A DNA stretch of 38,819 nt. It comes from Acutalibacter sp. 1XD8-33 (GTDB lineage: Bacteria; Bacillota; Clostridia; Oscillospirales; Acutalibacteraceae). Each line of letters starts with the position of its first letter. Within the stretch, counting starts at the first letter, position 1. Shown here piece after piece: positions 17,476 to 33,573 of the stretch. The stretch is from positions 1 to 38,819 of the forward strand of contig NZ_RAZF01000028.1 in the NCBI RefSeq assembly GCF_003612555.1, read 5' to 3'. The notes under the pieces are model-generated. The model saw nothing but the letters and a program-made list of their open reading frames with translations, was not told the origin of the DNA and made no database searches. Both the position numbers and the translations under genes were made by a program.

Positions 17476-17496
17476 AGAGTTCGCGAAGCGAACTCT
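17476..17496. repeat. AGAGTT...AACTCT mini-hairpin within copy A
   Basis: AGAGTTCGC pairs perfectly with GCGAACTCT around loop GAA. Copy B has at the equivalent place only a short GTGGGAC/GTCCCAC stem. The same hairpin with loop AA occurs elsewhere in copy B (29107-29126). Confidence 0.75.
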
Positions 17497-17547: not shown

Positions 17548-17763
17548 ACGAAACTTTTACCCTGGACCGGGTGTGGGGGTGAGCGTCTGCCAGTGGCAGA
17601 CAAGCTACGAACCGATCGAAGCGGCAGCTGAGACTCGCGGAGCCCCACGGCTTTTCCGGAATGCGCGTTTCTGTGCGCATGAAGGCCACACAGTATTACT
17701 CTCAAAAGTATAAATAAAAGCCTGAACAGAATGGGCGGTAGCCCTGGAAAGCGAGGAACAGAT

Positions 17764-23579: not shown

Positions 23580-23774
23580 ATGGATGTCACAAACAGTTTA
23601 GCACACACCAGGTGGAATTGCAAATATCATATAGGATTTGCGCCGAAATACGGAAGTAAGGTGTTTTATAAGGAGAAGAAGGCAGAGGTAGGGAAAATAC
23701 TGAGGAGCCTTTGCGAGTGGAAGAAGATAAGGATAATAGAAGCAGAAATATGCCCGGACCACGTACAAGGGTAA
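23580..23774 (+). pseudogene. tnpA: IS200/IS605-type Y1 transposase, truncated at the HUH motif
   Basis: From ATG 23580 (AAAAGGAGG upstream) the product reads SLAHTRWNCKYHIGFAPKYGSKVFYKEK, then ILRSLCEWKKIRIIEAEICPDHVQG and a stop. It matches the first 60 residues of IS200-type TnpA, whose HUH histidine pair follows the CPDH. The sequence breaks off exactly there, so the second His, the catalytic Tyr helix and the right end are lost. Full proteins are about 130-155 residues. The downstream gene on the other strand ends at 23811, 37 bases away. The element is dead as drawn. Confidence 0.85.
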
Positions 23775-25548: not shown

Positions 25549-28500
25549 TTACTGGCCCCGCTGTCCTACAAAGCGGCAGTTCCCCTCCCCCAGAAGCCGC
25601 AAAAGGGCCTTCAGCAGCTGGTCGCTGACCTCCACCCGATATTTTGCGGGGGCCTTCAGCAGCTTGTTCTGATCCTTAAAAAAGATATACAGGTCGTTGT
25701 GCCCGCCGTCAAAGATTGCCACATACTGCATGGCTTTCTGATAGTGGGGATCCTCCATGGAGTCAACGCGCAGATACAGTCCCGGCCGAACACTGCTTGC
25801 CATTTCCCCGGCCTTTGGCGGCAAAGAAAAGGTATCGCACAGCAATTCAGGCTCTTTTTCCTCCTGAAAGCTCAGCCGTCCGCCGGCCTCCACAACAGCC
25901 CCCTCAAATATCAGATTCCCGAACTCCTCCAAAACCCGGGGGAACACCAGCGCGGTCATGGTCCCATACATATCTTCCAATGTGACAAACGCCATGGTGG
26001 ACCCGGACTTGGTATCCTTCCGCCGCACAGAGGTGACAATTCCCAAAAGAGCCACCCTCTGTCCGTCTTGGTACTTCCCCCCCTCCCCATTTTCCGCGCT
26101 CTGGAGGATCTCTCCTGTTTTGGCATACCGCCCCGAGGCGTAAAAAGAGGCGTAGCCCGCCATAGGGTGTCCGGTGAGGTACATGCCTGTTACCTCTTTT
26201 TCCTGGGCCAGCTTGTCCTCGGGAGAAAAATCCTCCGCGTGTGGCAGGGAGATCTCGCCGCCGGGAGCCTGGGGAGAGTCGAAAAAGCCCACCTGCCCCT
26301 CAATGTTCCGGCGCTTATCCTCCTCTAAGCCGTTCAGCACAGGCTCCAGCCCCAGCAGCATCTCCCGGCGGTTGTTGCCAAGGCCGTCCAGAGCGCCGCA
26401 CTTCACCAGGCTCTCAATCGCCCGGCGGTTCATCTCCTTACCGGCCATTCGTTTACAGAAATTGTAGAAAGAAGTGTAGGGACCTCCCCCCCGGCGCTCC
26501 TGGACCATCCGGGCGATGACGCCCTTTCCCAGATTCTTCACCGCCGCCAGACCGAAGCGGATCCGCTGCCCGTCCACCGTGAAGCCCGTGCCGCTATAGT
26601 TCACATGGGGGGGCAGCACTTCCAGGCCCAGGCGCTTGCACTCCTCAATATACTCCGCCACCTTGCCGGTCCACCCCAGCACGCTGGACAGCAGCGCCGC
26701 CATGTACTCCTGGGGGTAGTGGCATTTCAGGTAGGCGGTCTGGTATGCTACTACGGCATAGGCCGCCGCGTGGGATTTATTGAAGGCATAGGAGGCGAAG
26801 TCCTGGATCTCCTGGAAGAGCTTCTCCGCCGTGGCCCGGCCCACCCCCCGGTTCAGGCAGCCCTCCACCTCCCAGGTGCCGTCCTCTCGCCGCTGGCCCT
26901 CGATAAAGATCTTCCGCTCCCGCTCCAACACGTCGTGCTTTTTTTTGGACATGGCCCGGCGCACAATATCCGCCCGGCCCAGGGAGTACCCCGCCAACTC
27001 CCGGAAGATCTGCATCACCTGCTCCTGGTAGATGATGCACCCGAAGGTTACGTCCAGGATGGGCCGCAGCCGTTCGTGCTGGTACTTCACCTTGGCGGGG
27101 TTTTTACAGTTTTCCAAATACGTGGGGATGAACTGCATGGGCCCCGGCCGGTAAAGGGAAATAATGGCGATGAGGTCCTCAATGCCCGTGGCCTGAGACT
27201 GGACCAGCAGCCGGGTCATGCCGGCGGATTCAAACTGGAACACCCCCACGGTATTGCCCCCCGCCAGCATGTTAAAAGTAGCCTTGTCGTCGTGGGGGAT
27301 GGCGTCCATGGAAAAGGCGGGCTCGTTCTGGCGGATGAGCTTCTGGGCGTTGTCAATGACGGAAAGGTTTCGAAGGCCAAGAAAATCCATTTTCAGCAGG
27401 CCCAGCTCCTCGATGGCCGTCATGGTGAACTGGGTGACCACCACGTCGTCATTTTTCGCCAGGGGCACGTACTCCATCACGGGCCGGTCGGTGATCAGCA
27501 CCCCCGCCGCGTGGGTGCTGGTGTGCCGGGGCATCCCCTCCACCTTCATCGCCATATCCACCAGGGCCTTCACCTGGGCGTCGCTCTGGCAGCGCTCCCG
27601 GAAGTCTTTGGACTGCTTCAAGGCTTTCTCCAGAGTCATGCCCGGCTCCATGGGCACCAGCTTGGCCACCTGATCCACCTTGCCGTAGGGCACCGCCATA
27701 GCCCGGCCCACGTCCCGGATAGCCCCCCGAGCGGCCATGGTGCCGAAGGTGACGATCTGGGCCACATGGTCCGCGCCGTACTTGTCCAACACATAGCCGA
27801 TGATCTCGTCCCGGCGCTCGTCGCTGAAGTCGATGTCAAAGTCCGGCATACTCACCCGCTCCGGGTTCAGAAAGCGCTCGAAAATCAGGTTGTACCGGAT
27901 GGGGTCTACATTGGTGATCCCGATGCAGTAGGCGGCCAAGCTCCCCGCCCCGGAGCCCCGCCCCGGCCCCACGGGAATGTCCACGCTTTTGGCGTAGCGG
28001 ATGAAGTCCCAGACGATCAGGTAGTAGTTAACATAACCCATCTGGGTGATGGTGTCGATCTCGTACTGGAGGCGGTCTTTCAAGTCCTGGCCTGGGTCGT
28101 CCCCGTACCGGGCGCGGAGGCCGTCCCAGCACAAGCGCAGGAAAAATTCCTGGTTGGGGGAGCCGTCCGGGGTGTCGAAGTGGGGCAGCTTAGTCTTGCC
28201 AAACTCGAACTCCACCTGGCAGCGCTCCGCGATCTTCACGGTGTTGTCCGCCGCCTCTGGCAGCTCTGGGAACAGCCCCCGCATCTCCTCCTCCGACTTG
28301 TAATAGAGCTCGCCGGAGCCGAAGTCCAGCCCCTCCTCCTCCACTGTGCGCCCGGTCTGGATGCACATCAGCACCCGGTGCATCTCCCGGTCCTCCGCGT
28401 CAATATAGTGACAGTCGTTGGTGACCACCAGGGGGATGCCAGTCTCCTGGGACAGCTTGATGATGCTGGGGTTTACATAATGTTCGTCACTGAGGCCGTG

Positions 28501-29028
28501 GTCCTGAAGCTCCAGGAAAAAATTCTCCGAGCCGAAGATCTCCCGGTAGCGCAGGGCGGCCTCCTTTGCCCCCTGATAGTCCCCCCGGAGCAGGGCCCTG
28601 GGAATTTCCCCGGAGACGCAGGCGGACAGGGCGATCAGCCCCTCGTGGTACTGCTCCATCAGCTGGAAGTCGATGCGGGGGCGGTTGTAGAAGCCCTCGG
28701 TCCAGCCCAGGGAGACCATGGCGGTCAGGTTGCGGTAGCCGGTCTCGTTCTCGCAGAGGAGCACCAGATGGCGGTTTTCGCTGTCGAACTCGTGGACCTT
28801 GTCAAAGCGGGTGCGCTTGGCCACGTAGACCTCGCAGCCGATGATGGGCTTGATCCCCCGCTTTTTCGCCGCCTTGTAGAAGTCGATGACGCCGTACATG
28901 TTCCCGTGGTCCGTAATCGCCACGGCCTTGTGGCCCATCTCCTGGGCCCGGTCCAGCAGGCGCTCGATCCGGCAGGCCCCGTCCAGCAGACTGTATTCCG
29001 TGTGCACGTGCAGATGCGCGAACGCCAT
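25549..29028 (-). CDS. dnaE: DNA polymerase III alpha subunit DnaE
   Basis: This is a 1159-residue C-family replicative polymerase. An N-terminal PHP domain (HLHVHTEYSLLDGA, then AITDHGNMYGVIDFYKAA) is followed by the palm with GPGRGSGAGSLAAYCIGI and PDFDIDF (the catalytic Asp pair near residue 395) and a third Asp in MDFLGLRNL (near 546). The fingers/beta-binding region follows with the helix-hairpin-helix, and an OB fold comes late (VALLGIVTSVRRKDTKSGSTMAFVTLED). In Firmicutes, DnaE works beside PolC in primer extension. GAGGAGG lies seven bases before the ATG. Repeat copy B occupies the space to whiA upstream. A 992-residue open frame on the opposite strand is a shadow. Confidence 0.97.
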   Translation of the reverse strand: MAFAHLHVHTEYSLLDGACRIERLLDRAQEMGHKAVAITDHGNMYGVIDFYKAAKKRGIKPIIGCEVYVAKRTRFDKVHEFDSENRHLVLLCENETGYRNLTAMVSLGWTEGFYNRPRIDFQLMEQYHEGLIALSACVSGEIPRALLRGDYQGAKEAALRYREIFGSENFFLELQDHGLSDEHYVNPSIIKLSQETGIPLVVTNDCHYIDAEDREMHRVLMCIQTGRTVEEEGLDFGSGELYYKSEEEMRGLFPELPEAADNTVKIAERCQVEFEFGKTKLPHFDTPDGSPNQEFFLRLCWDGLRARYGDDPGQDLKDRLQYEIDTITQMGYVNYYLIVWDFIRYAKSVDIPVGPGRGSGAGSLAAYCIGITNVDPIRYNLIFERFLNPERVSMPDFDIDFSDERRDEIIGYVLDKYGADHVAQIVTFGTMAARGAIRDVGRAMAVPYGKVDQVAKLVPMEPGMTLEKALKQSKDFRERCQSDAQVKALVDMAMKVEGMPRHTSTHAAGVLITDRPVMEYVPLAKNDDVVVTQFTMTAIEELGLLKMDFLGLRNLSVIDNAQKLIRQNEPAFSMDAIPHDDKATFNMLAGGNTVGVFQFESAGMTRLLVQSQATGIEDLIAIISLYRPGPMQFIPTYLENCKNPAKVKYQHERLRPILDVTFGCIIYQEQVMQIFRELAGYSLGRADIVRRAMSKKKHDVLERERKIFIEGQRREDGTWEVEGCLNRGVGRATAEKLFQEIQDFASYAFNKSHAAAYAVVAYQTAYLKCHYPQEYMAALLSSVLGWTGKVAEYIEECKRLGLEVLPPHVNYSGTGFTVDGQRIRFGLAAVKNLGKGVIARMVQERRGGGPYTSFYNFCKRMAGKEMNRRAIESLVKCGALDGLGNNRREMLLGLEPVLNGLEEDKRRNIEGQVGFFDSPQAPGGEISLPHAEDFSPEDKLAQEKEVTGMYLTGHPMAGYASFYASGRYAKTGEILQSAENGEGGKYQDGQRVALLGIVTSVRRKDTKSGSTMAFVTLEDMYGTMTALVFPRVLEEFGNLIFEGAVVEAGGRLSFQEEKEPELLCDTFSLPPKAGEMASSVRPGLYLRVDSMEDPHYQKAMQYVAIFDGGHNDLYIFFKDQNKLLKAPAKYRVEVSDQLLKALLRLLGEGNCRFVGQRGQ

Positions 29029-29082
29029 CGTCCCACCTCCTCTTCTCCCGCGCTAAAGTTTCCATACCATTATGGAGTAATA

Positions 29083-29290
29083 CGGAGTGGCCTTCATGCG
29101 CACAGAAGAGTTCGCAAGCGAACTCTCGCGCATTCCGGCAAGACCGTGGGACTCTGTCCCACACCCTGCGAGCTTTTGAAAAAGCTCGAGCAAAACTTTT
29201 ACACTGGTCAGCTGAGTGCGATAAAGCTAACCAGGGTAAAAGTTTCGTCCACCTTTTCAAAGGTGGTGGGGGTGGAGGGGGCAAAGCCCC
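29083..29290. repeat. Composite palindromic repeat, copy B (between whiA and dnaE)
   Basis: Left to right: the complement of the tail with GCGCACAGA (29083-29106), mini-hairpin 29107-29126, GTGGGAC-TCT-GTCCCAC (29146-29162) and CGAGCTTTT-GA-AAAAGCTCG (29169-29188). An inverted core (29191-29207), the core CCAGGGTAAAAGTTTCG (29231-29247), CCACCTTTTCAAAGGTGG (29249-29266), and a GGGGTGGAGGGGGC stretch with a GGGGC-AAA-GCCCC hairpin follow. It fills the 311-base gap; no gene is present. Confidence 0.8.
29107..29126. repeat. AGAGTT...AACTCT mini-hairpin within copy B
   Basis: AGAGTTCGC pairs perfectly with GCGAACTCT around AA. Copy A has the same flanks (GCGCACAGA on one side, CGCGCATTCCGG on the other) joined directly with no hairpin, so A is the empty site for this insertion. 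Confidence 0.8.
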
Positions 29291-29339
29291 TCCCCGCCGG
29301 GGGCCATCAACACTCTCAAAAAAATGCCATTTGTGCAAG

Positions 29340-30275
29340 TTACATAATTCCATCGATGCCCTTTTCTTCGATAATGGCCTCCCCCATCTCCAGCAGCTTT
29401 TGCAGCCGGTGGTTCACCCCGCTGCGGCTGATCCCCAGCCGCTGGCCCAGCTCCCGCAGGGTGAGATCCGGGTTGTTCAGGCGCAGGACCGCCAGCTCCC
29501 GCAGGCCGTCCGGAAGGCTCTCCAGCCCTCGGCAGTCGCTGATGGCCGCGATGGCCGCGATCTGCCGGGCGGAGGCCGAGTAGGTCTTGTCCATATTGGC
29601 GGTCTCGAAATTGGTCTTGCGGTTGATGTTGTTCCGGGCCTCCTTGTACATCTTCACCTGCATCAGCTCCATGGAGGCCCCCGTGGCCCCCAGATAAGTG
29701 AGCAGATTCTCGATCTGGCCGCTGTCCTTCAGGTACACCCCGTAGCCCCCCGGGCGGCGCACCACCGCCGGGTTGCTGGAGAAAGCCTCCGCCTCCCCCA
29801 GCAGGGTGTATAGATCTCCCGCCAAATTTTTATAGGGTGCGGCGAATTCCAGATGGTAGCCCTTGTTGGGGTCCGTCACGTTCCCGCAGGCCAGAAAGAT
29901 TCCCCGCAGAAAGGCCGTCTGGCAGCAGTCTCCCTCCAGCACCGCTCGGTTGATGCGCAGGCTGGGCTCCCGGCCCGTGTGCCCGAAGGCTTCTACCAGC
30001 CGGACCCGCTCCTGCTCCTCGGGCAGGCTCACCCGGTACGCGGGGCGGCGTCTCCGGCTCACCGCATAGCTTAGCTGAGCCGAGACCCCAGGCCCGGACG
30101 CCGCCAGCTCCAGCATCCGCCGGGCGGCTGGGCCACTCTCTGTGGTAAAGGCCGCCTCCTTGATGGTAAAGCACTTGGAGAAAAGCCAAGCGCCATAGCA
30201 TTCCGCCCGCAGGCAACAGTCCCGCTTGATCTGTATTTTGCAAAGCTCCGTTTTGATATCCGCCGTAAACGACAT
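29340..30275 (-). CDS. whiA: WhiA-type DNA-binding regulator
   Basis: This is a 311-residue WhiA protein. The N-terminal part (SFTADIKTELCKI...ECYGAWLFSKCF, then a LAGLIDADG-like fold with FLRGIFLACGNVTDPNKGYHLEF and DLYTLLGE) precedes a C-terminal HTH (LRLNNPDLTLRELGQRLGISRSGVNHRLQKLLEMGE). In Streptomyces it controls sporulation genes; in Bacillus it affects cell division and chromosome segregation. It starts three bases after the P-loop gene, so it is translationally coupled. In many Clostridia it follows rapZ and yvcK; here yvcK is absent. Confidence 0.95.
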   Translation of the reverse strand: MSFTADIKTELCKIQIKRDCCLRAECYGAWLFSKCFTIKEAAFTTESGPAARRMLELAASGPGVSAQLSYAVSRRRRPAYRVSLPEEQERVRLVEAFGHTGREPSLRINRAVLEGDCCQTAFLRGIFLACGNVTDPNKGYHLEFAAPYKNLAGDLYTLLGEAEAFSSNPAVVRRPGGYGVYLKDSGQIENLLTYLGATGASMELMQVKMYKEARNNINRKTNFETANMDKTYSASARQIAAIAAISDCRGLESLPDGLRELAVLRLNNPDLTLRELGQRLGISRSGVNHRLQKLLEMGEAIIEEKGIDGIM

Positions 30276-33024: not shown

Positions 33025-33573
33025 AGAAGCTGTACCAATAGGATTTGTGTTATAGTAAACACACTTGAAAATCGGTATATACCGATTTTCAAGCTGGGCG
33101 GCTCAAGAGGCTGTGACCTCCCCACCTGGTTCAAAAGAGGTGATTCTACCTCTTTTGAACTGCGTTAACTATACTTTTGAGAGAGTGTTTTTGCCTCTGG
33201 CAACTGGGGAGTCTCACCTGCCGGTTCGGTCGGCGCTTGACGGTTCCCACTGGGGACCAGCGCCCCCAGACCCCTGACCAACTGTAAACTGGGTGTTGCC
33301 AAGCTTTGACCAGCTGGACCGGTCGAAGCCGTCCAGGATAAAAGTTTCGCCCGCCTTTTTAAAGGCGGTGGGGGTGGAGGGGGCGAAGCCCCTCCCGCCG
33401 GAGCCGCCGATCTGTGGCGGCGGAGGCCACACAGTATTACTCTCAAAAAGTATACGATTTTCGAGCAAATTCAGTGGGGAGAAGCAATCTGGCGATTGAC
33501 AAGTTCTCACAACGCCACTCCCCGGCTGAATTTGCCGGAAAGGGGAATGCAAACGCCTATTGGTACAGCTTCT
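33025..33573. repeat. Composite palindromic repeat, copy D, bounded by an 18-base inverted repeat
   Basis: The block starts with AGAAGCTGTACCAATAGG (33025-33042) and ends with its exact complement (33556-33573), which touches the hprK stop. Inside are a 30-base perfect palindrome (33064-33093), a GTTCAAAAGAGGT stem (33129-33160) and core CCAGGATAAAAGTTTCG (33333-33349). CCGCCTTTTTAAAGGCGG (33351-33368), a GGGGC-GAA-GCCCC hairpin, the tail GGCCACACAGTATTACTCTC (33425-33444) and a GCAAATTCAG/CTGAATTTGC stem (33465-33535) follow. No gene is present in the 639-base gap. Confidence 0.8.
33064..33093. repeat. Perfect 30-base palindrome within copy D
   Basis: CTTGAAAATCGGTAT followed by its exact complement, with no spacer. 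It starts 22 bases inside the left end of the IR-bounded block. Confidence 0.8.

Follow-up and report, generated by a model that had tools for sequence, protein, structure and literature searches.

The window, the whole stretch of 38,819 nucleotides from Acutalibacter sp. 1XD8-33 that was analysed, carries a DNA polymerase III alpha subunit gene (dnaE; 25549..29028, reverse strand) and a whiA-like gene (29340..30275, reverse strand), both assigned by Pfam. A repeat element, element B, adjoins the former gene and has the latter on its opposite side (approximate extent 29074..29324, forward strand), with loosely inverted ends GGAGTAATACGGAGTGGCC and GGCCATCAACACTCTCAAAA. Sequence, covariation and folding mark a terminal stem-loop in it, copy B (29090..29139, forward strand), whose outer parts are GCC (29090-29092) and GGC (29137-29139) and whose stem arms are ATGCGC (29096-29101) and GCGCAT (29128-29133). 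The loop of this structure is filled by a 20-base hairpin, AGAGTTCGC-AA-GCGAACTCT (29107..29126, forward strand), termed here the type 1 cassette and defined by its sequence and its genome-wide matches, and an ACAGA bulge (29102-29106) lies between the left stem arm and the cassette. Two further ends of the repeat are found in the window, both empty and both on the reverse strand. Copy A (17648..17702) has the same ATGCGC stem as copy B and the loop ACAGAAAC at 17674-17667, and the third end (33390..33443) has the stem GCCGCC and the loop ACAGATC. The "empty" copy A itself bears cassette arms of the copy B type at 17476..17496 (forward strand); they enclose a 3-base loop and lie within the loop region of its second (GTGG..CCAC) hairpin.

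The first-pass annotation had treated copies A and B as an empty and an occupied version of one site. The hairpin at 29107-29126 is present as described, and copy A (the complement of 17690-17656) does have the same flanks minus the hairpin, but the flanks do not abut directly, given that copy A reads CACAGA-AA-CGCGCATTCC. Thus, the 20 bases of copy B stand for AA in the loop of the 6-bp ATGCGC/GCGCAT stem, a net gain of 18 bases, and the "flank" common to both copies is a covarying stem-loop in its own right. Precise placement, which had also been claimed, is not supported in that form, because the AA is lost and the 3' joint differs between stems (C, AC or TC).

The flank common to A and B forms one end of an intergenic repeat, dispersed through the genome, whose inverted ends are of the type TTTTGAGAGTAATACTGTGTGGCC. 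Ends of this type occur as inverted pairs approximately 220-300 bases apart (C23:18511+/18680-, C39:203606+/203814-, C6:87244+/87492- and C21:38904+/39148-), and in many other elements a full end is present at one side only. Just inside the repeat end, the terminal stem-loop is laid out as GCC, three bases, a 6-bp stem arm, a loop such as ACAGAAAC, the second arm, three bases and GGC. Element B as a whole is a local gain, since G010 and G018, two genomes of the same genus, have only a short whiA-dnaE gap with no such element in it; in G005 the gap holds a different sequence. The parent repeat is MITE-like: its terminal sequences are inverted, and a site that it occupies is vacant in relatives. 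At the right end of element B (29302-29324) the terminal stem-loop is absent and GGCC runs into a GC-rich module, whereas the end at 33390-33443 has the stem-loop present between TCC and TCC, and so the terminal stem-loop may itself be a nested insert.

A covariance model built from 14 empty ends of the source genome recovered at least 137 terminal ends in that genome (E up to 0.1), a lower bound because 150 of 1905 candidates were scored. There were 122 matches with E up to 1e-3, from which 120 were extracted and two short ones (C39:37039 and C9:32517) were left out. The extracted ends fall into two size groups: 92 are no longer than 56 nt and thus empty-sized, one is 59 nt, 26 are 64-74 nt and one is 105 nt, making 27 of at least 64 nt (C8:83054, at 64 nt, is counted as filled-sized and bears neither cassette type). 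The 83 ends that were parsed have loops of 7-9 nt (58 ends) or 22-27 nt (25 ends), and none has a loop of 10-21 nt. These correspond to 58 empty ends, 18 with a type 1 cassette (AGAGTTCGC type with variants) and seven with a type 2 cassette, an unrelated hairpin of the form AGACTTGGC-NNN-GCCAAGTCT, with near variants, that occupies the same site. The other 37 of the 120 are short AAAGG-loop, GTGC-TTC, truncated or misparsed ends, and they include C17:233449 (ATGCGC stem, empty) as well as the 105-base end C8:73540, which has a long composite insert. The filled ends C6:31746, C6:68691, C39:95347, C8:14307 and C50:87296 lie outside the 120 and the counts drawn from them. The composite insert in the terminal loop at C8:73540-73644 is much longer than a cassette and looks as if built from other repeat modules.

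Empty and filled states are distributed over several stems. In the parsed set, the numbers of empty, type 1 and type 2 ends are 7, 11 and 3 for the stem ATGCGC; 11, 1 and 0 for GCCGCC; 10, 2 and 0 for GGCGGC; and 4, 0 and 3 for GGGCGC. For ATGCGC-like stems, empty, type 1 and type 2 loops are found in combination with both end types, long and short, and next to differing hairpins. Long and short end types stand at 6:5 among type 1 copies and 3:5 among empty copies, so that all four combinations occur and no association of filling with end type is evident (Fisher p 0.65, from copies that are related by descent and counts that are not independent). Because the states combine with differing end types and flanking hairpins, the content of a loop appears to vary independently of the sequences that lie a few tens of bases to its left and right.

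Cassettes also reside in other hairpins of the repeat. When loop variants are allowed, the hairpin pattern gives 27 forward and 28 reverse matches in the whole genome, corresponding to 29 distinct sites, and a control read backwards gives 0 and 0. The cassette of copy B was merged with the near-identical copy C8:5870 in the context listing, which gives 28 contexts for the 29 sites counted, and the elements that contain copy B and C8:5849 are alike (88% over 237 bases), so that these two copies are not independent. Terminal loops account for 18 of the sites; nine more, with 3-base loops and including 17476-17496 in copy A, are in the GTGG..CCAC hairpin that follows in the element. The last two, with 4- and 7-base loops, are in other contexts, and the surroundings of one of these recur in G005. 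No clear solo cassette in unique DNA was found among the 29 sites, and no clear flanking duplication of the cassette was seen. The self-contained mobility proposed for the hairpin is therefore not borne out, as 27 of the 29 sites are loops of parent hairpins of the same repeat family.

Related 21-base hairpins (AGACTTGGC, AAACTTGGC, ATACTTGGC, AGACTTCGT and others) occupy the loops of further parent hairpins, including CCAGCTGGTC..CAGCTGG and CTGCCGG..TGCAGAC, and empty versions of these occur too. The cassette core ACTTGGCNNNGCCAAGT has 99 sites in the genome, and 39 of the 41 distinct sites that were read, most of them from stretches chosen for repeats, are in five recognised parent contexts. 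In genome G228 of the same genus (L149), the CCAGCTGGTC loop is likewise occupied by a AAACTTGGC cassette and a different cassette is present at another place, so the habit of placing cassettes in loops is not confined to the source species. Locus L149 (G228:C2) has 48 bases at 100% in common with element B and loop cassettes of its own, which may mean a recent exchange between species. Overall, the A/B pair represents a single case within a broader system in which loop inserts can be exchanged. The pattern is wider than a reading of a single window could show, yet weaker than had been claimed as evidence of mobility.

The direction of change can be approached through relatives. The covariance model detected terminal ends in nine of 29 genus genomes, the source genome included, and the 54 listed ends (of 98 matches) from seven other species are all 48-56 nt and thus empty-sized. 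By comparison, 23 of the 96 source-genome ends down to E 1.4e-7 are filled-sized against none of the 54 listed ends elsewhere (Fisher p 2e-5, with copies that are not independent), in a comparison that covered one genome per species, 54 of the relatives' 98 matches and 150 candidates per genome, with a model trained on the source genome's empty ends, so that filled ends in relatives could have been missed. At 25 loci of relatives, 23 show an end with a short loop such as ACAGGTC, AAAGGGC or ACAGGGC, and for the remaining two the end lies outside the stretch shown. The hairpin pattern itself occurs in three of the 29 genus genomes including the source, and in the other two it is not in a terminal loop. 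Because the 54 listed ends (of 98) are empty-sized, filling of the terminal site looks derived in the source lineage, with filled ends only in the source species among the ends listed.

Three of the 25 loci have matches of at least 250 bases to source-genome stretches (L374/L021, L377/L026 and L382/L085). The two aligned pairs, L374/L021 and L377/L026, gave no clean occupied and empty orthologues, and both gaps hold elements in both species. The second of these pairs was considered as an orthologous empty/filled site, the source end having a type 2-like hairpin and the G229 end being empty, but was rejected because a single flank is held in common. Also, viral contigs scanned twice for ends in either state, filled or empty, yielded no matches.

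The stems that carry these loops vary in sequence and yet pair. Among the 14 empty ends, 96.8% of cells are paired and five pairs have changed on both sides; no cell has changed on one side only, and thus there is no G-T pair. The covariation score of these ends is greater than those of all 500 shuffles and all slid controls, and the number of pair types is not above the shuffles (434 of 500 as high). Parsed ends, to which the pair totals are restricted because the 120-row set includes misparsed arms, contribute 498 stem pairs, with 482 Watson-Crick, four G-T and 12 mismatched, and 13 different fully paired stems. These counts fit arm-to-arm copying and are not the usual trace of stepwise RNA compensation.

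In one copy, C28:89085, the left arm and loop are the exact reverse complement of the loop and right arm of the standard copy, and consequently the ACAGA bulge is gone and AA has become TT. This combination of arm correction and loop inversion is a template-switch signature. The ACAGA or ACA bulge has been erased by arm matching in four copies (C28:89085, C6:31746, C106:57789 and C8:37691), with one mismatch left after the erasure in each of C106:57789 and C8:37691. Described footprints of template switching include multiple compensatory changes and inverted loops, and the process is reported as able to make perfect stems in a single event (PMC8794818).

The perfect hairpin is also encountered far from this genus, in 102 stretches from other genomes (L170-L271). 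Many Lachnospiraceae copies form half of a different double-hairpin repeat, beside TTCGCGAGGCGCGGA or its like, and an uncultured Lachnospira genome has many copies of the perfect hairpin in that repeat. Some of the remaining copies are simple hairpins next to runs of T, and a few come from unrelated phyla. In a sample of the family, four of 200 genomes including the source had a hairpin match; those in two g85 genomes, with 4-base loops, and in G181, with a 3-base loop, were set aside, the contexts being different where the surroundings were read. The copies in the 102 stretches are judged likely to reflect convergence and not descent.

The explanation that best accommodates these observations, to which we assign a probability of roughly 0.55, is that the 20-base hairpin is a discrete loop cassette of a MITE-like modular repeat, propagated in part through the copying of short tracts or template switching and in part as whole elements move. 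The cassette would have entered a terminal loop in the source lineage and then reached other ends by very short-tract copying, perhaps through ectopic template switching or gene conversion during replication, aided by the hairpins themselves. Movement of whole elements would also have spread cassettes, and the template-switch process might in addition keep or re-make the exact complementarity of the arms. Because the type 1 arms are absent from the empty flank, local template switching alone cannot make the insert and an outside template is needed; no outside donor template for the type 1 cassette was found. Joints that differ by one or two bases could also mean that several true insertions took place.

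Of the alternatives, drift combined with a chance similarity of two unrelated intergenic sequences can be dismissed with the greatest assurance. The small size of the insert is the single observation in its favor, and it is refuted by a chance expectation of 0 (0.00 hairpin matches in the window) and by the family-wide dichotomy between empty and filled ends. The annotation's view of the hairpin as a discrete unit and not slow drift is thus upheld by the two-peaked sizes, the unrelated hairpin at the same site in seven of 83 ends and the empty size of all 54 ends listed, out of 98, for other species; scoring repeat copies at the join, as it had proposed, gave an empty/filled split without gradual intermediates (loops of 10-21 nt) in the 83 parsed ends. 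The filled state could instead be ancestral, with empty copies created by precise excision of a palindrome. Palindromes are known to be deleted during replication, and empty copies are found on most stem types, but an ancestral filled state is hard to reconcile with the short ends of the other species (54 listed of 98), with a hairpin pattern that in both non-source genomes of the three having it lies outside terminal loops, and with the likeness of the source genome's empty loops, which contain no remnant, to loops found in relatives such as ACAGGTC and AAAGGGC. We regard this order of events as very improbable.

Two other proposals have somewhat more in their favor, although both seem unlikely. 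If the hairpin were itself a mobile element, inserted into loops by a protein that acts on single-stranded hairpins, such as a Y1 tyrosine transposase (IS200/IS605 or REP-associated), the occurrence of the same cassette in the same loop of several stems with differing joints, and also in a second parent hairpin, would be expected. The genome has three Y1 transposase matches: one is full-length (C9:15610), another is a fragment inside the window (23610-23765) and the third falls short of the family cut-off. The window fragment matches Y1_Tnp (IS200/IS605-type transposase) with E 5e-10 in an open frame of 89 aa. Against such an enzyme, 20 bases offer no room for separate ends, unique DNA has no clear solo copy among the 29 sites, the locus of the full-length Y1 gene (L416) has none of four motifs tested, and four of the nine genus genomes having ends (G005, G229, G232 and G015, the last only 63% complete) have no Y1 match. 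A role as transcribed structured RNAs, in which selection for RNA shape would maintain the nested hairpins as extensions of a helix, is doubtful to almost the same degree. Strong covariation of the terminal stem is compatible with it, as is the folding of copy B RNA (-23.2 kcal/mol, z -2.31), but copy B folds about as unusually as DNA (z -2.30). Furthermore, selection on RNA tolerates G-U, whereas only four of the 498 pairs are G-T and the 14 empty ends have no one-sided changes that might represent G-U intermediates. The sole Rfam match in the window at the gathering threshold is a tRNA, and no terminator-like site and one promoter-like site were found around element B.

A broader proposal can be put forward tentatively: loop-targeted hairpin cassettes may form a bacterial class, in which perfect hairpins of about 20 bases enter only the loops of larger hairpins, replace one another and nest palindromes level by level through replication template switching without a dedicated transposase. 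Within one genome and at many replicate sites, the repeats record how perfect hairpins originate, become nested and keep their arms complementary. With such a record, template switching, selection and transposition become testable against each other in a bacterium. The family also shows how small exchangeable hairpin blocks can build complex intergenic repeats.

There are several known systems with which these elements can be compared. ERIC, NEMIS, BOX and BIME sequences and bacterial MITEs likewise have many short noncoding intergenic copies, inverted ends and a modular make-up, and ERICs carry insertions at fixed sites. The insert here differs in being a hairpin of about 20 bases that sits in a second hairpin's loop; one site has at least two different inserts, and comparable ones are found in other loops. 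A limited search of the open-licence literature found no description of loop-nested interchangeable hairpins in bacteria, and no paper on palindromic repeats of Acutalibacter was found there. Cyanobacterial small dispersed repeats, reported by Elhai and others in 2008, are said to include very short palindromes whose presence or absence at sites suggests movement and, unlike the present cassettes, are not known to be restricted to loops. Solo copies in varied unique sites, the mark of an autonomous mobile hairpin of this kind or of the GC-cluster kind, were not seen, with 27 of 29 sites inside repeat hairpins.

REPINs are hairpin-forming mobile units with excision events that a Y1-type transposase (RAYT) is thought to move, and the cyanobacterial small dispersed repeats are named in the same text (PMC3116915). 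The cassettes described here differ from REPINs in their ends, sequence and architecture. Linkage to a RAYT was not seen at the single full-length Y1 match in the genome, a putative Y1 gene at L416, where all four motifs tested are absent. A parallel may also be drawn with the GC clusters of yeast mitochondria, described in PMC4478555 as palindromes of tens of bases that merge and shuffle and that, depending on the strain, stand alone or merged at the same site. The nested hairpins recall this merging and shuffling, but their host is bacterial and not mitochondrial and no clear duplication flanks the cassette. Finally, hairpin evolution by template switching, as presented in PMC8794818, likewise makes or keeps perfect stems by copying one arm from the other and leaves loop inversion as a footprint; that account deals with RNA genes, whereas the system found here is a repeat family with interchangeable loop inserts.
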